This document shows positions 54,651 through 63,999 of a stretch of 64,000 nucleotides of DNA, piece by piece. The stretch lies in the NCBI GenBank assembly GCA_937899835.1, contig CALCCE010000011.1:1-64000 (forward strand). Reading direction: 5' to 3'. The translations under genes were made by a program, and so were the position numbers. Origin of the DNA: an uncultured Flavobacteriales bacterium. Its GTDB lineage: Bacteria > Bacteroidota > Bacteroidia > Flavobacteriales_G > Salibacteraceae. The notes below the pieces were generated by a model, which did not search any database, was not told the origin of the DNA, and worked only from the letters and a program-made list of their open reading frames with translations. The stretch's first letter is position 1. The number at the start of each line of letters is the position of its first letter.

Positions 54651-55727
54651 TCAACCTCCGGTATGTTTAGGCATTACGCCTTTTTTGAAGAGCCCGGTTT
54701 CCGGGCCTTTTTTCTTTTTATCCTTCCGGGCTATTTTGCGCTTGTTGCGCACAAAGGCATCTGCGTCAATGGACCGTTTCTTTCGCTTGGCGATTTTCGG
54801 ATTGCTAAAACCCAGTTTACGCCCATGGCGTTTGTTGGCCCTAACACCATCGGGCGCCACACGGTGATCGTTGAGAACTCTATTGCGAGATGAAACTTTG
54901 ACCGCAAACGGGTCTCCCTGCTTGCGTGACTTTTTGGGCGATCTCACTTTTACAGAAAAAGCATCGCCTTTAGCCGATTTCCGACTGGATTTTTTGGAGA
55001 CTTTTACTGAAAACGCATCACCTGCCGATTTTCTTTTTTTCGCCTTGCCGACCTTAATGGAAAATGGATCGGAACCATTGGTGCCTCTTTTGGCGCGAAC
55101 CGGCTTACTGAAGGGGTCCTTACCCGACTTCGACTTTCGCGCTTTGGGAGCTTTCGTGGAAAATGCATCACCTTTGGCCGCCTTTCGGCTTCCCTTTTTT
55201 CCACCTCCACCCAACTGTTTTAATGCCAGTTCACCCTCCGCTTCATGCGCAGGTACAACCAACTGATCTGGCAACAGTCGAGGCCTTTGTAGGCTCAACC
55301 CCGAAGGCAGGTTTTCTGGCTGAAAAGAGAAACGCCTCCGTTTGCCTCTTGCCTTTTTCCGATTAACCCTTTTACTAAAGAAATCGGTTTTGCCGCGAGC
55401 GCGGTCTCTCTTACGGGCTCGGGTAGGCTTCGAATACGAGTACTTTTTCCCGGAATATCGCCCTTTTCGCACCTTACGGGCAAAACTATCGTTCTTGCCC
55501 TTCCCAACCTTTGATTTGCGTCTTTTTTGCCTTTTGGGTACCACTCGGCGTTGACTGAAAGCATTTCGCCTTTTCTTTTTCAACGTGCGCGACCGGTTCA
55601 TATTCCTACCCCGATCGCCCGACCTGGAAAAAGCAGATTTTTCCACCCGATTGCCAGGCACACTGGCACACTGCGTCAAAGAAAACAGAGCAATAGAAAG
55701 GAAAATGTAGAGCAGGTAAACGCGCAA
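54651..55727 (-). CDS. Highly basic lipoprotein with repeated GD(A/P)FS motif
   Basis: 358 aa. Lipoprotein signal (LLYIFLSIALFSLTQC, Cys20) followed by an almost wholly Lys/Arg-rich chain of low complexity. A Phe-centred motif recurs about a dozen times: SAFSRS (31), RNAFSQ (55), NDSFARKV (79), TDFFSKRV (114), GDAFSTKA (186), KDPFSKPV (203), SDPFSIKV (219), GDAFSVKV (236 and 254), GDPFAVKV (271), DADAFVRNK (321). A short non-basic island lies at 136-175. The end is VMPKHTGG. No family recognised. A TACTTTTG element 34 bp upstream and an in-frame stop at 55758 support the TTG 55727 start. It may bind LPS, nucleic acid or other polyanions; inference only. Confidence 0.8.
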   Translation of the reverse strand: MRVYLLYIFLSIALFSLTQCASVPGNRVEKSAFSRSGDRGRNMNRSRTLKKKRRNAFSQRRVVPKRQKRRKSKVGKGKNDSFARKVRKGRYSGKKYSYSKPTRARKRDRARGKTDFFSKRVNRKKARGKRRRFSFQPENLPSGLSLQRPRLLPDQLVVPAHEAEGELALKQLGGGGKKGSRKAAKGDAFSTKAPKARKSKSGKDPFSKPVRAKRGTNGSDPFSIKVGKAKKRKSAGDAFSVKVSKKSSRKSAKGDAFSVKVRSPKKSRKQGDPFAVKVSSRNRVLNDHRVAPDGVRANKRHGRKLGFSNPKIAKRKKRSIDADAFVRNKRKIARKDKKKKGPETGLFKKGVMPKHTGG

Positions 55728-55761
55728 TGGGGTCGGCTTAGTTAAGTGGCAAAGATATTAA

Positions 55762-55769
55762 CAAAAGTA
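55762..55769 (-). promoter_or_regulatory. -7 element TACTTTTG upstream of basic lipoprotein
   Basis: A perfect TAnnTTTG match 34 bp before the TTG at 55727. It supports transcription of the gene and its non-ATG start. Confidence 0.5.
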
Positions 55770-55851: not shown

Positions 55852-56085
55852 ATGCAAGCAAAAGAGATTCGTCCGTATTACCAAAAACATTGCCGCTTTA
55901 GAATGCGATCTGGCAAGGTTGTATACGGAGTAATCTGGTCAGATGTTCACCAACATTATTTTGCAAGTCATCGGGAGTTCGAAGCCTATCAAAGCGCCAT
56001 TCAAAACCGGGACAAAGCAACATGCCAACGCCTTCGTTTTCCGGTGGACCTCAACGAAGTAGTTGCGGCCGAACGCTTAAATTAA
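55852..56085 (+). CDS. 77-aa conserved-looking hypothetical protein
   Basis: 77 aa, soluble, start ATG 55852. YYQKHCRFRMRSGKVVYGVIW forms a beta-hairpin-like start, followed by HYFASHREFEAYQSAIQNRD and a final RFPVDLNEVVAAERLN helix. RMRSGKxVYGVIW resembles small Bacteroidota proteins of unknown function. The codon content looks normal. It converges on the TonB receptor gene with an 11-bp gap. Confidence 0.65.
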   Translation: MQAKEIRPYYQKHCRFRMRSGKVVYGVIWSDVHQHYFASHREFEAYQSAIQNRDKATCQRLRFPVDLNEVVAAERLN

Positions 56086-56096
56086 TTTCGTAAGCT

Positions 56097-58538
56097 TTAC
56101 AACCGCGCCCTAAGGGTGAGAATAAAGTTTCTTCCGGGTCCTGAAATTCCTGATGCAAATGGTTTATAGTGGCGATCCAACAAATTTTCAACCGCCAGTT
56201 GTAATCCAAATGATTTAGACATCTGGTAATTTCCCTTCAAATTCAAGGTATACCAGGATGGTGCTCCATCCACTGTTGCTTCTTCCGGGTTGTCTACTCC
56301 TGAAGGAGAATAATCTTCAATGCGTTTCCACCCATTGAACATGGTGAAAAAGCTTCCTTGCACTTTGCCTTTCAAAAAATTGAGCCCCAAACGGCCAAAG
56401 GTTGGAGGAATATGGCCCAGCGGAACATCCTCAGAAAGGTCTCTTCCGAAAGTATAGGTATACCGGCCTGCAAAATCAAAAAAGCGATTCAGCTTCCAAT
56501 CTATACCTGCGGTTCCCCCATAGATCACCCCCCGATTGGAATTGGTGTTGGATTGCAGGTTGAGCATTTGCCCATCAAACATGAGGGAATCTTGACCGTT
56601 CAGTTGCACATCTGTGCGCACCATTACATTTTGCAACCAAGAATAGTACCCGTTGAGGTGAAGCTTTAAACGCTTTTCAAAAAAGGATTTGGAAACCGTC
56701 AGCTCTGCGTTGTATACATATTCTGGCTTCAAATCATTGTTGGGCACAATCAGGTTGTCGCCATTCTCAAAAATTTTACCGATGTCGTCCACATTGGGAG
56801 CTCTAAAACCCGAAGAAGCAACGCCATTGATTTGCCAGCCGGGCGAGGGACGATAAATCAAACCTACACTTCCTGTCAATGCTCCGTTTTTATTGTCGAT
56901 GCGGTTAAAAGGCAAATCGTAAATGTTGGAATCGATCTCTGCTTGTAGCGACACAAAGCTGTAGCGGGCACCCAGATTGGCAATCCATTTTTTACCAAAG
57001 TTCTTTTTGTAACCCAGGTAAACGGCAGCACTTTGCACCTCACTTCCTCCATCGGGATACCGGGTAGCCCGAAATCCGATTTCTTCCGATTCGATGTTTT
57101 CAGTAAAAGCATTGGAAGTTACTCCATTGTGTAGCAATTCTATACCGTATTGCAAAGAAGAAAGGGTGTCGATTATTTTTCGGAAATCAGCATTCAAACT
57201 GGCCACCTTTACTTCTTCCTCGTTGTGTTGGGTTTGGGATTGACCAAAGCGCCTGCTTATCCGACTCTCCTCAATATCCTGATAGCCAGCCGTTATTTTT
57301 AAGGTGTTGAAAAAGGTATTGGAAGAGCGTACAATGGAAGTAAGCGAGGTAAACAGCCTCTTTTGTGGTCCATAGTGCCAATCGGCATACCGCAGGGTAG
57401 AGTCGTTGTCAAAAATCGTGAGGCGATCGTACCGCGGCACATTAGAGCTGGTGGAAAACTGGGTATTTAAGATCAAATCAAGGTTGCTGTTTGGCCGGTA
57501 CAACACCTTTTGCATCACATCGTACTGCTCGTACCCCGACCTGCGCATACGGTTGGGATCGGAGTTGGGCACCATTACATCTTGACCGTTGATGCGGTCG
57601 GCGTAGAAATTGATCTTTCCAAAGTCGGGATACGCCGAACTCCGGTTGCTTCCCATTTGCAAGTCGCCAAAATTGGAGTAGGTAATACTGGAAAGGAATC
57701 CAATTTTCTTGTAGCCCAGCTCAACATCCGCGTGCGTAGTAAATTCACGCGTAGCACTTGCGCCTCGGGAAAAAGTTTGAACAAAAGCTCGGGTGCTGTC
57801 ATTTTGCGCCAGTCGAGGGTTTCGCGTTACAAAGTGCATCACTCCACCAAGTGCATCACTTCCATACATGACCGAGCCCGGGCCGAAGAGTACTTCAACC
57901 CGCTCCATGTTGTTGTTATCTAAGGTGATGACATTCTGCAGGTGGCCGCTCCGATAAATGGCATTGTTCATTCGAACACCGTCTACCACCAACAACACCC
58001 GGTTCGCTTCGAAGCCCCGCAATACCGGACTCCCCCCTCCTACCTGGCTTTTTTGCACCAATACCTCACCGCGTGTTTGCAAAAGATCAGCGGTAGTGGC
58101 ACTGTTGCTCAAGCGAATTTCTTTGCTGGAAATGGTCTGAATGCGGTACGGAACTTCTGATTTTTTCTCCTCATGACGGGCTCCTACAATGGTCACTTCC
58201 CCAATACTCTGGAAAGTACTGCTAAGGATAAGGGTATACCCCCAGTCTTTCAAATCCGACTTCACAATGGTGAAAGATTCGTAGGCAGGGTGCTGGAAAA
58301 CCAGCGTATCCGTGTCTTTGAATTCGTTTAGAATGGCGAGGCCGGTAGAGTCGGAAAGGGTAGAGGTTTTGCGCTGGGTATCGTAAATGAAAACATTGCT
58401 AATGGGCCGAAAGTCCGATTCTGAACGCAGGCGCAACTCTTGCGCCCAAGTGTGGTTGCTGAGCAAAGACAACAACGCAACCAGGCACACCAAAGCTGGT
58501 TTCCAAAATCGGACGGTGATGGGTTGTAGCGGTTTCAT
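56097..58538 (-). CDS. TonB-dependent receptor, heme/hemoglobin-receptor type
   Basis: 813 aa. Signal peptide to about residue 33; a short carboxypeptidase-regulatory-like segment (RPISNVFIYDTQRKTSTLSD); plug at 115-250 with the segments SPVLRGFEANRVLLVVDGVR, NNAIYRSGHLQNVITLD and GPGSVMYGSDALGGVMHF, diagnostic of the hemoglobin/transferrin/heme receptor branch. The C-terminal barrel ends GRNFILTLRARL. It should import heme or another iron source. Its ATG overlaps the recO stop by 4 bp (ATGA): co-translated after recO, an odd functional pairing. The heme ligand His residues (FRAP/NPDL) are not clearly seen. Confidence 0.92.
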   Translation of the reverse strand: MKPLQPITVRFWKPALVCLVALLSLLSNHTWAQELRLRSESDFRPISNVFIYDTQRKTSTLSDSTGLAILNEFKDTDTLVFQHPAYESFTIVKSDLKDWGYTLILSSTFQSIGEVTIVGARHEEKKSEVPYRIQTISSKEIRLSNSATTADLLQTRGEVLVQKSQVGGGSPVLRGFEANRVLLVVDGVRMNNAIYRSGHLQNVITLDNNNMERVEVLFGPGSVMYGSDALGGVMHFVTRNPRLAQNDSTRAFVQTFSRGASATREFTTHADVELGYKKIGFLSSITYSNFGDLQMGSNRSSAYPDFGKINFYADRINGQDVMVPNSDPNRMRRSGYEQYDVMQKVLYRPNSNLDLILNTQFSTSSNVPRYDRLTIFDNDSTLRYADWHYGPQKRLFTSLTSIVRSSNTFFNTLKITAGYQDIEESRISRRFGQSQTQHNEEEVKVASLNADFRKIIDTLSSLQYGIELLHNGVTSNAFTENIESEEIGFRATRYPDGGSEVQSAAVYLGYKKNFGKKWIANLGARYSFVSLQAEIDSNIYDLPFNRIDNKNGALTGSVGLIYRPSPGWQINGVASSGFRAPNVDDIGKIFENGDNLIVPNNDLKPEYVYNAELTVSKSFFEKRLKLHLNGYYSWLQNVMVRTDVQLNGQDSLMFDGQMLNLQSNTNSNRGVIYGGTAGIDWKLNRFFDFAGRYTYTFGRDLSEDVPLGHIPPTFGRLGLNFLKGKVQGSFFTMFNGWKRIEDYSPSGVDNPEEATVDGAPSWYTLNLKGNYQMSKSFGLQLAVENLLDRHYKPFASGISGPGRNFILTLRARL

Positions 58539-59260
58539 TCACTCAAAGCTTCAAGCACCCTTCTTGATTTCAACTCCTTGAAGTGTTCCAGGTGAACTTG
58601 ATAATAGCGTAGCAGTAGGTCTAACAGACTTTTTCGCTCTGTTCTTGAAAATTTTAAGCCGCCAATTGCAGCAAATTTCGTGCCTGATATTGCACCTAAG
58701 TGCTCCACCGCTTGCCCGTCAGCAACATCGCGGTGGGTGGGTGAAAAAGAGGAGAAACGGCCTTCGCGGAGATCGAAATACATTTCATTAGGGTGTTGCT
58801 GCTCTTGCAGCGCAAACCCTAAAAAACCTGCAAACTTCACCAGAAACCAAAGATGAAAGTTGAACGGACAAGCCGCCACCTGATCTAAGTAGTTGCCACA
58901 ATCAGCCAGGAAATCGAACAGGTCTTCGTCCGGTTCATCCTCCTCTAAGGATTTGTAGATGACCTCGGCCAGAAAAAACGCCATGCTTTGGCGGGATGGA
59001 TCAAACGGAATGGATTGATAAGGAACCTCCAATTTGATTTCTTTAATGCGGTGGAGCGTACTCCGCTCGCTTCGGTACACGACCAGATCAAGTTGATTGA
59101 AAGCTTGAAACCAACCTGCCTTGGTTTTGGATTTCCGGCTTCTGGCACCGGGCACCAGGTAGGATTGCAAACCGAATTGGCGCGTGTAGATGCGCACAAT
59201 TAAGCTGCTCTCAGAATACTTGGATTTATGGAGTACGATGCCCCCCGTTTTGTAGAGCAT
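58535..59260 (-). CDS. recO: DNA repair protein RecO
   Basis: 241 aa recombination mediator (RecFOR pathway). N-terminal OB fold: YKTGGIVLHKSKYSESSLIVRIYTRQFG, QSYLVPGARSRKSK; helical C-terminal part with KFAGFLGFAL. The four-Cys zinc motif of some RecO proteins is absent, as in many Bacteroidota. ATG 59260 (MLYKTGG) was chosen over TTG 59275. It follows the first PorZ-like gene by 27 bp and overlaps the receptor gene by 4 bp. Confidence 0.93.
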   Translation of the reverse strand: MLYKTGGIVLHKSKYSESSLIVRIYTRQFGLQSYLVPGARSRKSKTKAGWFQAFNQLDLVVYRSERSTLHRIKEIKLEVPYQSIPFDPSRQSMAFFLAEVIYKSLEEDEPDEDLFDFLADCGNYLDQVAACPFNFHLWFLVKFAGFLGFALQEQQHPNEMYFDLREGRFSSFSPTHRDVADGQAVEHLGAISGTKFAAIGGLKFSRTERKSLLDLLLRYYQVHLEHFKELKSRRVLEALSE

Positions 59261-59287
59261 GATGGTAGGCCACAACCGGCCAAAGCG

Positions 59288-61681
59288 TCAATTCACGAAT
59301 AGTATTTTCGAAACACAGGTATTTTGTCCCAGTGGATCGCTGCAATATACAAGATACACCCCGGTAGACGCTTTTTCACCATTAAAACTTCGACCATTCC
59401 AGGTGGCCTGACCTCCATCGGTAATGGTTTCGTAAACAATGTTGCCTTCTACATCGGTAATTTTCACATTGCTGTTGCGGATGAGACCCGAGATAGCAAT
59501 TTGTCCGGTATAATCCGGTGGAACCGGATTGGGAAAAGCATACACATCGTTGCACTGAAAACCACCTTCGGTAGCGGTTCCCCGGTAGGCAATTACGCCC
59601 TTGTCCGTAGAAAAAATCACTTCTCCATTGTCCGAATCGATGCTGATGTGCAACACGTTGTTGGATAACAGAGGACTATTGTCAGTCGTGAAGTGCAGGA
59701 TTTCTTCAGTTCCATCTGCCGACATTAGAAATACACCCGCCTTCTCGGTGGCAAACCATTTGCGATCTGCTCCATCCACGGCAATAGAGGTTACCGTTTC
59801 GGTTTCCAATAAGATTTTGGTTTGCCCATCTTGCTGTACGAATATTTGCTGGGCATCGATCGCACCGCCAGAAAACACGTCTCCGGGAGAATAGAAAACC
59901 GCTACACCCAAGTCAGTTCCTACCCAGATTTCTCCGTCCTGGTCTTCGGCCACACAAAAGGTAGTAGGGCTGGGCAAGTTTCCTCCTCCTGGAGCAGTAT
60001 TCAAAATCCGGGTACGATCATCGGTAAAATTGTTCAAGGTGCCATTGTCGTCAAACACCAACAAACCCGCCCGGGGCATCACGATCCACTTCCGGTCAAA
60101 TTGATCGACCATTACCTGACTGAAAAGGTCGGTGCCCGTAGCTGCAGCCAATCCATAAGACACAAAGTTTCCTCCGTTGGTCAGCACAGCCACGTTTTTT
60201 TCCACCTTATTCAAAGACATCCAAAGGTTGCCGTTTTGATCAAAGTCGAGCCCTCGAACACCTACCCAATTGAAATTGGGATTGGTGGGGTCTTCTTCTT
60301 CCAAAATACTATTGGTGGCATCGAACACACTGGTCACCACACCATCGCGGAACTCGATCAAGCCGGTACCGAATGAGGCTCCGTACACCAAAGAAGGATC
60401 TTCAGGATGAACCGCAAAGTTGACAATATCGTGAAGTGGCTCAAGAATAGCATCTGATGATTCAGAGATGAGGCTCCAGGATTCGTCTGTTCTACGGTAA
60501 ACTTCTGCTGGAAAAAAAGCACTCGATTTTTGCGAAATCACATTGCCCGCAGCTATCCAGAGGTCGCCATTGGAGACCATGGTGCTGCTTGTATTGGCGC
60601 GAAAAGGGCCTTCCGGCGTAATGACATCGTATTTAAAATCGTCGATCACTTTCACCAAACCCTGGTTTCTATCGGCAATCCACATGGTACCGTCGGTAGC
60701 CATTGCAATGTGTTGAGGCGATGGCGGAAGCTCAGAGAAATAGGAAAAAATGTTTTGTACTGTTTCAAAGTCCTTGTTGTAAGTCGTTACTGTATTGGCG
60801 TGCGTTACTACGAGGTTCTCGCCCACCACCTCCATGTTTCGATTGTTGAGCCCTGCAAAAACCGTAAAGGGACTCCATTGCTGGGTATCGAAGTCATACA
60901 CAATGGCACTGTCATTATTGAACACAATACTTCGGTAGTTGGCGTAGAGTTTACCATTGAAAAAGTCAATCTCCTGGAAATAGGGAATACTCGAGTAGGG
61001 CAAGTCGGCAAACTTCTGCCAGGAATCAGGTGCCCAAAGTGCCGGGCCGTTCAGAGCGGCAAAGTATATGCCCAAACTTGTGGTGGCAAATAGCTGATTT
61101 CCATCCGAGGTAATATCGAACACTTCTAATTGGGAGCCATTTTCCCCAATGAAAAAGGTTTCTCTTACCTCCGGGCTTCCGCCAGCATCAAATCGAATCC
61201 AAATGATGCCGAAACCACAAGCGAGGTAGATGTCCTCTTCTAAAAAGTAAATGTTGTAAATGGTCTTAGGGCTTACCTGATTGTCACGCAGTATATCAGC
61301 CATGTTGATGACCCGGTTGTCGTTGATGAAATCCAGGTTTCCGTTGGAATATCCTACTACCACAAAACCAGAAGCCGGGTGATAACGCATGACTTCAACT
61401 CCTACATCACTAAGTCCAGAAATACTGTTGAGCCGCTCTACGCTGTTGTCGTTCAACCCAAAGGTGAAAAGGCTGTGCGGAGTAGCGGCATAAATGGTGT
61501 TTGGCGTAACGGCTACCCATTGGCCTTCACGGTAGGGCAAATAGTCGCGCCACTGCCCTACCCCAACCCCTTGGGCATATAGCTGCCCCCAAGGCAAAAG
61601 CAATACCCCGATCAAGGCCCCAATAAAAGGCTTCAGCAGTTTCTTAGACCTACTTTGGTTTCCACTTAGTTGCTTTGTCAT
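59288..61681 (-). CDS. PorZ-like T9SS beta-propeller protein (copy 2)
   Basis: 797 aa from ATG 61681. Signal peptide (LLKPFIGALIGVLLLPWGQLYAQ). Two seven-bladed propeller regions with Asp/Trp box-like repeats (DGTMWIADRNQGLVKV, NGNLWMSLNKVEKN, DGEIWVGTDLGVAVF, DRKWFATEKAGVFLM). The C-terminal beta-sandwich is T9SS CTD-like (VYAFPNPVPPDYTGQIAISGL, VYLVYCSD, ending ILFVN). This is the PorZ architecture; PorZ in Porphyromonas helps attach anionic LPS to T9SS cargo. It lies 2 bp after its paralogue. Confidence 0.85.
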   Translation of the reverse strand: MTKQLSGNQSRSKKLLKPFIGALIGVLLLPWGQLYAQGVGVGQWRDYLPYREGQWVAVTPNTIYAATPHSLFTFGLNDNSVERLNSISGLSDVGVEVMRYHPASGFVVVGYSNGNLDFINDNRVINMADILRDNQVSPKTIYNIYFLEEDIYLACGFGIIWIRFDAGGSPEVRETFFIGENGSQLEVFDITSDGNQLFATTSLGIYFAALNGPALWAPDSWQKFADLPYSSIPYFQEIDFFNGKLYANYRSIVFNNDSAIVYDFDTQQWSPFTVFAGLNNRNMEVVGENLVVTHANTVTTYNKDFETVQNIFSYFSELPPSPQHIAMATDGTMWIADRNQGLVKVIDDFKYDVITPEGPFRANTSSTMVSNGDLWIAAGNVISQKSSAFFPAEVYRRTDESWSLISESSDAILEPLHDIVNFAVHPEDPSLVYGASFGTGLIEFRDGVVTSVFDATNSILEEEDPTNPNFNWVGVRGLDFDQNGNLWMSLNKVEKNVAVLTNGGNFVSYGLAAATGTDLFSQVMVDQFDRKWIVMPRAGLLVFDDNGTLNNFTDDRTRILNTAPGGGNLPSPTTFCVAEDQDGEIWVGTDLGVAVFYSPGDVFSGGAIDAQQIFVQQDGQTKILLETETVTSIAVDGADRKWFATEKAGVFLMSADGTEEILHFTTDNSPLLSNNVLHISIDSDNGEVIFSTDKGVIAYRGTATEGGFQCNDVYAFPNPVPPDYTGQIAISGLIRNSNVKITDVEGNIVYETITDGGQATWNGRSFNGEKASTGVYLVYCSDPLGQNTCVSKILFVN

Positions 61682-61683
61682 GG

Positions 61684-63999
61684 CTATTGATTTAGCAGCA
61701 AGAGTTTGGTAGTGCAAGCTTCTCTGCCTCCTGGCTTTTGAGTAAACATTAAATAAATACCTGAACTGACCGGTTCTCCATCGAACCGCATCTGATCCCA
61801 AACCAGACTTTCACCATCCGAAAGGGCTTCGTAAACCAAGTTGCCCGCAAGATCGGTAATTCGAACCACAGCATCGGTTTGTAGCCCGGAAATGGTGATC
61901 CCGAATTGGTGTTCAGGTGGTACTGGATTAGGATAAGCGTACACTTCGCTACAATCGATGCGTGAATTGACTTCTGTAAGTGAAAACGCCAGCAAGCCAA
62001 GATCAGTACCTATATACATCGTTTGGATGGAAGGATCGTATTCCAGCGCAATGATGGAATTCGAAAAGAGGGGGCTATCCGATTGGGTGAATTGTGCCAG
62101 TACTTGCTCTCCTTGCTCGTCAAGGACATATAAACCTCGGTTTTCGGTGCCTACCCATTTGCGGTTTTGGTGGTCTACGGCCAAGGACTTTACCCAAGCA
62201 TCTTCCGGAATAGCAATAGCACGTGCCGCATCAACAACCTGATTCTCCCAAATGGTTTGTTCAGGATCGACGAATTGAACCAGGCCTGAAGAAGTTCCGA
62301 TCCATACGTTAGTATCCAAATCTTCCGCAATGCAGTGCAACTGATCGCTCGGAAATCCACCTTCTCCCGAATTTTCGGTAAGAATGCGGGCCCGATCGTC
62401 GGACACATCTTCCAGCGTACCTTCTTCCCGAAAGATCAAGACCCCACCACCTCTCGGTAGAATGGCCCATTTGGTTCCGGAACTGGCAATTAAAGTTTGA
62501 TCTACAATGTGTCCCTCCATCCACTCCGAAAGGTCGAACGTGTGCCACTCGCCCGCAGGAGTTTTTACCGAAAACGGATTGTTGACCGCCGTGTTGGTCA
62601 CCCAAAGATTGCCATCCCGATCGTGGTTCAAATCGGTGATGCCTATCCAATTCCAAGCCGGGTCAGCGGCTGGCATCCGGGAAAGCGTGCTGTTCTCGTG
62701 GTTGTAAGAGCCAATCAAGGTTCCGTTTTGAAACTCCCAAATACCATCTCCCAAACTACCGGCATACACATGCGTCTGATCCTGTGGGTCACTTTCGATA
62801 GCAATGAAATCAAAAACGGTATCCAATCGAGAATCCTTCCACCGGTCTACCGATAACCAATCGCCATTGGAAAAACCATAAATGCCTCCTTGGAGCCAAC
62901 GGTTTCTCCATCCCGAATTTTTACCTCCTGGTGCTACCCAAAGGCTTCCGTTGCGGGCCGACATTCCGGTAATAGCAGAACTCGGAGGCCCAAGCGCCCG
63001 CAGCTCTTGAAATTGATTGTCAGTTCCAAAAACCAATCCCTTGTTCAAGTCGGCGATCCAGAACTTTCCCTCATAAAACAAGGCATGTCCCGGTCGTGGA
63101 GGAACATCCAATTGATAGTTGGAAACAGCAGATACCGTTTCCCAATTTGCATCTACCACTTGAATCCACTCCGAGTGGGTAATCACCATGCGATTTTCTA
63201 CTACTTCAAGGTGGTAAGTGCTTTTGTTAGACAGCGTATCCACCACTTGCCAGGCAGAGTCTTTCCAAGTCCACACAGTGTCGGTTCGGTAAGCCTCGTT
63301 TCTATGGTTTGCATAGTAGGTTCCTTCTAAGCATGCGATGGCATCCAGTTGCCGTTTTCCCCAGGGCAAGCTTCCGAGATAAGACCAAAAACACGGGTAG
63401 GGCAATGTGCCATTGTCCAGCGAAGCAAACCGCGCACCTTTTGGGGTGGCCAACACCATGGTGTTGCCATCCGAAGCAAAATCCAACACTTGCAAAAAAC
63501 CCTCATCCACTCCTGGGTAATAGAAGTTGCGCACCTCTCTTTTGTCGGGGTCCAGTTCCACCAATCCAAAGTCACAACCGAGATAGAGCCTACCGGCAAT
63601 CTCTCGAATGCGGTTGATCTTTTTGCCTGAATTGATCGAAGTCAAACGTATGGCAGGTAAGTTGAATAAGTTTCCATTGGAGTAGAAGTCAACATCTCCC
63701 GATGCATACCCAATCACCAATTGATCACTGGCATGATGGTAAGCCATTGCCGTAATGTCGAGGTTGGATAATCCTTGCACCTTACTCAATCGTTCTAACT
63801 CCCCGGAGGAGCGATGGTATACCAAAACACCATTATCATTGGCAGCAAACGCCTGGTTGGGACTCACCGCTACCAAACGTCCTTTTTGGTAAGAAAGAAA
63901 TTCTTGCCAATTACCAATGATCGAAGACTGTGCAAAAAGATTACCCACTATATCTACAAGAAATAAGGCGAACAGCAAATATTTGAGGGAACGCCTCAC
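61684..63999 (-). CDS. PorZ-like T9SS beta-propeller protein (copy 1, 5' end at window edge)
   Basis: 771 aa as read from GTG 63999, one base inside the window, so a true ATG may lie outside. Signal peptide (YLLFALFLVDIVGNLFAQ), then the same plan as its downstream paralogue: NWQEFLSYQKGRLVAVSPNQ, DGNLWVTNTAVNNPF, NVWIGTSSGLVQF, RKWVGTENRGLYVLD, and the CTD-like end VYAYPNPVPPEHQFGITISGL through TTKLLLLNQ. About 43% of aligned CTD positions look the same by eye, a rough estimate. Tandem with copy 2 at a 2-bp gap. Confidence 0.82.
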   Translation of the reverse strand: MRRSLKYLLFALFLVDIVGNLFAQSSIIGNWQEFLSYQKGRLVAVSPNQAFAANDNGVLVYHRSSGELERLSKVQGLSNLDITAMAYHHASDQLVIGYASGDVDFYSNGNLFNLPAIRLTSINSGKKINRIREIAGRLYLGCDFGLVELDPDKREVRNFYYPGVDEGFLQVLDFASDGNTMVLATPKGARFASLDNGTLPYPCFWSYLGSLPWGKRQLDAIACLEGTYYANHRNEAYRTDTVWTWKDSAWQVVDTLSNKSTYHLEVVENRMVITHSEWIQVVDANWETVSAVSNYQLDVPPRPGHALFYEGKFWIADLNKGLVFGTDNQFQELRALGPPSSAITGMSARNGSLWVAPGGKNSGWRNRWLQGGIYGFSNGDWLSVDRWKDSRLDTVFDFIAIESDPQDQTHVYAGSLGDGIWEFQNGTLIGSYNHENSTLSRMPAADPAWNWIGITDLNHDRDGNLWVTNTAVNNPFSVKTPAGEWHTFDLSEWMEGHIVDQTLIASSGTKWAILPRGGGVLIFREEGTLEDVSDDRARILTENSGEGGFPSDQLHCIAEDLDTNVWIGTSSGLVQFVDPEQTIWENQVVDAARAIAIPEDAWVKSLAVDHQNRKWVGTENRGLYVLDEQGEQVLAQFTQSDSPLFSNSIIALEYDPSIQTMYIGTDLGLLAFSLTEVNSRIDCSEVYAYPNPVPPEHQFGITISGLQTDAVVRITDLAGNLVYEALSDGESLVWDQMRFDGEPVSSGIYLMFTQKPGGREACTTKLLLLNQ

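Follow-up and report, generated by a model that had tools for sequence, protein, structure and literature searches.

A conserved, exported polybasic protein with regularly spaced phenylalanine motifs in an uncultured Flavobacteriales bacterium and its relatives

The 64,000-nucleotide stretch of an uncultured Flavobacteriales bacterium analysed here (GenBank assembly GCA_937899835.1, contig CALCCE010000011.1, positions 1 to 64,000; hereafter, the window) carries on its reverse strand, at positions 54651..55727, a gene for a polybasic lipoprotein built around a repeated Phe-centred motif. The gene is real, conserved and undescribed, and no searched family library names it. Its product probably serves to glue together or organise envelope material of negative charge, a role that we infer. 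No credible match to the repeat protein was found in Pfam, NCBIfam, PHROGs, PADLOC or PDB sequence searches, in agreement with an earlier sequence-only reading of this DNA, which had recognised no family; literature searches on YfiR/SpoIIE/T9SS and on polycationic or lysine-rich lipoproteins in Bacteroidota found nothing relevant.

The gene encodes 358 amino acids and begins with a TTG codon (coordinates include the stop codon). All parts of the product described below are given by their positions on the reverse strand. A predicted signal peptide with the lipobox SLTQ-C (residues 1–20; 55668..55727) precedes a first, irregular region of Phe motifs (SAFS, NAFS, DSFA, DFFS, and RFSF; residues 31–135; 55323..55637), an island poor in Lys and Arg (residues 136–175; 55203..55322), a regular repeat region of the GDAFSxKV type with a Phe each 16–18 residues (residues 186–277; 54897..55172), and a conserved C-terminal region (residues 289–358; 54654..54863), which includes an invariant tail LFKKGVMPK (residues 346–354; 54666..54692) located 4 residues before the end. 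The mature protein, counted from Cys20, has 112 Lys and Arg and 22 Asp and Glu among 339 residues, corresponding to 33% K+R and a net charge of +90, and the island has only 3 Lys or Arg in 40 residues, just as the sequence-only reading had described a K/R-dominated chain interrupted by a short island. On the same strand, a candidate Bacteroidota -7-type element TAnnTTTG (TATCTTTG; 55750..55757) lies 30 bases before the TTG codon, and a second putative element of the TAnnTTTG type (TACTTTTG) is located at 55762–55769; both are consensus matches only. The codon usage of the repeat gene fits that of its neighbours (0.022 versus a mean of -0.052 and a standard deviation of 0.018 for random synonymous sequences), but antisense frames score equally high, and codon usage alone cannot choose the strand. 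A terminator-like hairpin with a T-run was observed on the forward strand within the 3' portion of the coding sequence (54692–54706); it is well placed for the convergent Usp gene, and such sites were no commoner in the scan than in shuffles.

Ser or Ala follows 12 of the 16 Phe residues in the window protein, while 3.0 such pairs are expected from composition shuffles. The strict motif D(A/P)F(S/A) is present in six copies, compared with a shuffle mean of 0.018, and none of 20,000 composition-preserving shuffles reached six; GD(A/P)F(S/A) is present in four. The "about twelve" motifs counted earlier therefore hold as F(S/A), and in the strict G-D-(A/P)-F-S form the number comes down to 4–6. 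In residues 186–277 the distances between consecutive Phe are 17, 16, 17, 18, and 17, in line with the spacing of about 15–20 residues previously noticed in the second half of the chain. Since the motif copies differ in synonymous codons for Gly, Ala, Ser, and Val, the motif is not a product of recent DNA duplication, and, taken together with the absence of any DNA-level tandem array in the repeat gene according to Tandem Repeats Finder, this indicates that the protein motif is what is kept.

A plain search of relatives returned six weak matches, three of which (L003, L004, and L005) encode exported polybasic Phe-repeat proteins, each just downstream of recO. Using recO as an anchor, 60 neighbourhoods were fetched from relatives; 18 of these encode the repeat protein, either immediately behind recO or behind recO and a TonB-dependent receptor gene. 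An alignment of the C-terminal region from 15 members, including the window, in which the tail residues F, L, F, G, V, P, and K are invariant, was converted into a profile designated A1. This profile matched 21 of 149 relatives, the window among them, with one copy in each; every sampled member of the genus g10 belongs to these 21. In the genomes G107 and G039 the repeat gene sits elsewhere and not downstream of recO, and when named genomes were scanned with the TonB receptor, the single carrier found was Flavobacteriales bacterium NORP27. The window matches A1 with an E-value of 5.3e-13, being itself one of the 15 profile rows; the scores of the fifteen known members are not independent evidence, as all of them are rows of the profile, and the independent evidence for the family is the common locus, the motif and the tail. 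A profile search of 395 genomes of the phylum matched only the window, and thus the A1 form is restricted. The tail motif was found 0–5 residues from the end only within K/R-rich frames, and when its DNA pattern was used alone, matches outside such frames were mostly due to chance.

All members that were read to the N-terminus have an export signal, which is a lipobox in about half of them and a plain SPI signal peptide in the remainder. Across the family, K+R content ranges from 19 to 33%, net charge from +22 to +90, and Phe spacing is mostly 16–17 residues; Cys and Trp are nearly absent, and the C-terminus carries a tail of the LFxxGVxPK type. Among 256 pooled Phe residues, Asp occupies position -2 in 47% of cases, Ser position +1 in 29%, and Lys position +3 in 49%; overall, Ser, Gly or Ala are found at +1, and basic residues at +5 to +9 and at -7/-8. 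The repeat protein is under purifying selection: for the close pair L059/L061, dN was 0.082 and dS 1.10, giving a dN/dS of about 0.07, while synonymous sites are saturated in most other pairs. The recO tree, with long branches and 28 of its 59 inner branches open, cannot separate loss from transfer.

Several irregularities of individual genomes were also observed. In two otherwise diverged genomes, G027 and G034, a segment of 2,255 bases is 98.7% identical (L062:3549-5803 and L069:590-2843), and the identical protein stretch starts inside the repeat gene, close to where its C-terminal region begins; this could result either from a recent recombination event that broke within the repeat gene or from a binning or assembly artefact. 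In G038 (L073:4120-5465) and in NORP27 (L143:8422-10733, with N runs), the repeat gene is distributed over different frames, probably owing to assembly errors or frameshifts in the repeats.

The signal peptide and lipobox predicted in the window protein, together with its net charge of +90, agree with the exported polycation carrying a fixed Phe-centred motif that had been proposed from the sequence. The lipobox (SLTQC) leads into CASVPGN, and no export signal of the K-(D/E)2, Q-A-(D/E)2 or S-D-D type was found after the +1 Cys. In Bacteroidota, lipoproteins are directed to the surface by an acidic signal at this place (PMC5080379); given CASVPGN without such a signal, the window protein is predicted to face the periplasm and, being lipidated, probably remains at the periplasmic side of the outer membrane. 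The outer surface, offered earlier as another location, is thus unlikely for this protein. However, its relatives L040 (CKQEE) and L065 (CSSDD) look more surface-directed, so that anchoring varies within the family, and the lipid-anchor signal pointed out before applies to the window protein but not as a general trait, since only about half of the family has a lipobox. An AlphaFold model of the window protein, obtained in a single-sequence run of the kind that often gives low confidence by itself, had a mean pLDDT of 49.8 and no tertiary fold, which is consistent with an intrinsically disordered chain. Neither Por_Secre_tail nor CHU_C, the type A and type B C-terminal sorting domains of the type IX secretion system (T9SS), was detected in the repeat protein at E<=1.

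The gene order in the window, all on the reverse strand, is a PorZ gene (PF21544) with a T9SS sorting domain (59288..61801), recO (58535..59275), a TonB-dependent receptor gene (56097..58538), which overlaps recO by 4 bases, and the repeat gene. This conserved context, which also includes a small neighbour described below, had been missed by the sequence-only reading. Two tandem genes for PorZ-like propellers with sorting-domain-like ends occupy 59288–63999 on the reverse strand, upstream of recO. In several relatives the repeat gene is followed by genes for a DUF4154/YfiR-like protein, a TPR protein and a HAMP-SpoIIE protein (directly after it in L071, L073, and L138). PorP/SprF genes are likewise among its neighbours in relatives. 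In the genome of the window, DUF4154, TPR and HAMP-SpoIIE genes are located elsewhere (L225:5611-13507), after OmpA-like and PorP/SprF-like genes. The steadiest neighbour of the repeat gene is recO, while the TonB receptor and DUF4154 genes do not adjoin it in genus g10 and in G003. Anionic LPS is a ligand of PorZ in P. gingivalis (PMC8545088). The PorZ/T9SS context of the repeat gene is suggestive only: the PorZ–recO adjacency is also present in genomes without the repeat gene, so the link to T9SS may be incidental. D-x-F bears some likeness to the RecO-binding tail of SSB, a parallel that was considered and dropped because the repeat protein is exported and the SSB motif lies at the C-terminus.

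On the forward strand, at 55852..56085, the window encodes a conserved 77-aa protein, transcribed divergently from the repeat gene and separated from it by 124 bases. Its family, with the core CxFxLxSGKxVYGVVW, has no match in Pfam or NCBIfam. Homologues of the small gene adjoin the repeat gene in G036, G038, G041, and G064; with the window, this makes five A1-type genomes from four families. Among 149 relatives the small-gene profile matches 23, and among 395 genomes of the class it matches 50; many of these matched genomes lack an A1-type repeat gene. Genus g10 and G003 retain the repeat gene but have no small gene. In family f10 the small gene is also found about 3 kb downstream of recO, with no detectable polybasic neighbour. 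The 38 small-gene loci fetched were screened for polybasic proteins with a signal-like N-terminus, at least 20% K+R in the mature chain and four or more Phe, loci being accepted up to 55% G+C. Ten such proteins were found in 0.25 Mb of small-gene loci versus one in 1.65 Mb of control loci; because only three families (f7, f17, and f39) contribute to them, the ten amount to no more than three or four independent cases. The f17 proteins L243, L255, and L258, diverged relatives with a period of about 32, have clear GDAFASNTK-type repeats, with six motifs in L243 and nine in L255 where 0.1 or fewer would be expected. In the polybasic Phe-containing proteins of f7 and f39 the strict motif is not clearly above chance, and two of those from f39 end in GLFPNGHPG or GLWPNGHPG. 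The model of the 77-aa protein (pLDDT 90) is a predicted small barrel with an N-terminal helix, as in Hfq/Sm-like proteins, and its nearest solved folds are those of Hfq, although the Foldseek match to 3hfo is weak (E 0.04, probability 1.0), the score in a VIA comparison to Hfq is modest (Z 5.0 over 58 residues, 3.1 A), there are extra helices between strands, and no sequence family is matched. The shared barrel does not by itself show RNA binding.

Taken together, these data lead us to favour, tentatively, an exported disordered polycation that would hold anionic envelope polymers together as a multivalent scaffold, its Phe motifs acting as stickers. The protein would be made with a signal peptide, cross the inner membrane and, in the window species, become lipid-tethered at the outer membrane on its periplasmic face. 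Blocks of Lys and Arg, alternating with D-x-F-S-x-K every 16–17 residues, would bind anionic LPS, capsule or DNA, the Phe motifs would provide stickers or docking sites at regular intervals, and the invariant LFxxGVxPK tail would attach one end to a partner. The outcome would be a flexible multivalent scaffold cross-linking envelope material, encoded beside PorZ/T9SS surface-assembly genes. Proteins of such extreme positive charge should adhere to nucleic acid and LPS. LPS, DNA or a repeated partner, which the sequence-only reading had proposed as ligands, are possible binding targets. In vitro, Lys/Phe peptides and polyanions form pi-stabilised polyelectrolyte complexes (PMC8271475). However, a pure polyanion binder needs neither a conserved acidic Asp before Phe nor an invariant tail, and lipidation is not conserved in the family. 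Since the conserved Asp in a polybasic chain and the tail ask for specificity, a second explanation comes close behind: each D-x-F-S-x-K could bind one copy of a specific envelope protein, such as a T9SS, TonB-receptor or DUF4154 partner, the basic linkers merely holding the chain extended or near LPS. The fixed flanks of the motif, which go beyond charge, its prevailing 16–17-residue spacing and the envelope-protein gene context agree with this possible but somewhat doubtful arrangement; on the other hand, no partner is common to all loci, given the situation in g10 and G003, recO as the steadiest neighbour is cytosolic, and L243, L255, and L258 have a different period.

It is also conceivable, though we consider it unlikely, that the 77-aa Sm/Hfq-like protein controls the polycation as an RNA binder or chaperones it before export, the envelope role being additional; such a two-gene module can be combined with either the scaffold or specific docking. 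The adjacency in five A1-type genomes, the excess of exported polybasic Phe proteins at small-gene loci and the fold model speak for it, whereas the genomes that keep the repeat gene without the small gene, the many small-gene loci without a polybasic neighbour, the varying orientation and the weak Hfq match speak against it. A charge-neutralising chaperone is not favoured, because the small proteins of this family are near neutral. A polyprotein precursor, cut by proteases at basic runs after export to free short cationic Phe peptides with antimicrobial or signal function, could be imagined from the many dibasic sites between similar 16–17-residue units; it appears very improbable, as a released peptide would have little use for the conserved C-terminal region and tail or for the lipid anchor that half of the family carries, and the loci read contain no gene for a processing protease next to the repeat gene. 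Low-complexity drift without function, the reservation attached to the earlier reading should homologues lack the motif, is refuted. It would fit a K/R-rich, apparently disordered chain with no family match, but homologues keep the motif, its spacing and the MPK end, the low dN/dS and the six motif copies against 0.02 by chance argue otherwise, and tail and locus are conserved over several families.

Exported disordered repeat polycations as a kind are already known from other organisms. Mussel foot proteins are likewise exported, disordered and strongly basic, and aromatic residues recur in them at short, regular intervals, but this is a resemblance only: their short tandem repeats combine Lys with Tyr/DOPA, whereas the repeat protein, which has no homology to them, is bacterial, uses Phe and has a conserved Asp before the aromatic residue, a conserved C-terminal tail and a membrane anchor. 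Sticker-and-spacer proteins of the FG/RG type (Ddx4, FG nucleoporins) also have a charged disordered chain in which Phe recurs at regular intervals; the repeat protein, again not homologous, differs in being exported, in its larger period of 16–17 residues, and in having D-x-F-S-x-K instead of FG. From its gene neighbour PorZ, linked to surface assembly, it differs in having neither a T9SS C-terminal sorting domain nor a beta-propeller. To our knowledge, few conserved exported extreme polycations have been described in Gram-negative envelopes.

The paired small protein and polycation would be the more novel part, if their function were confirmed. One could speculate, with little confidence, that they represent an undescribed class-wide two-gene module of Bacteroidia, in which the Sm-like protein would be a dedicated RNA-level regulator of an exported disordered polycation with Phe docking motifs, forming a condensate-like envelope layer of anionic polymers. 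The regular Phe motif under purifying selection, the fixed tail and the recurring small neighbour make this family a testable case of a sticker-and-spacer envelope scaffold, and would provide a first handle on genes that have no family-library name in many Bacteroidia.
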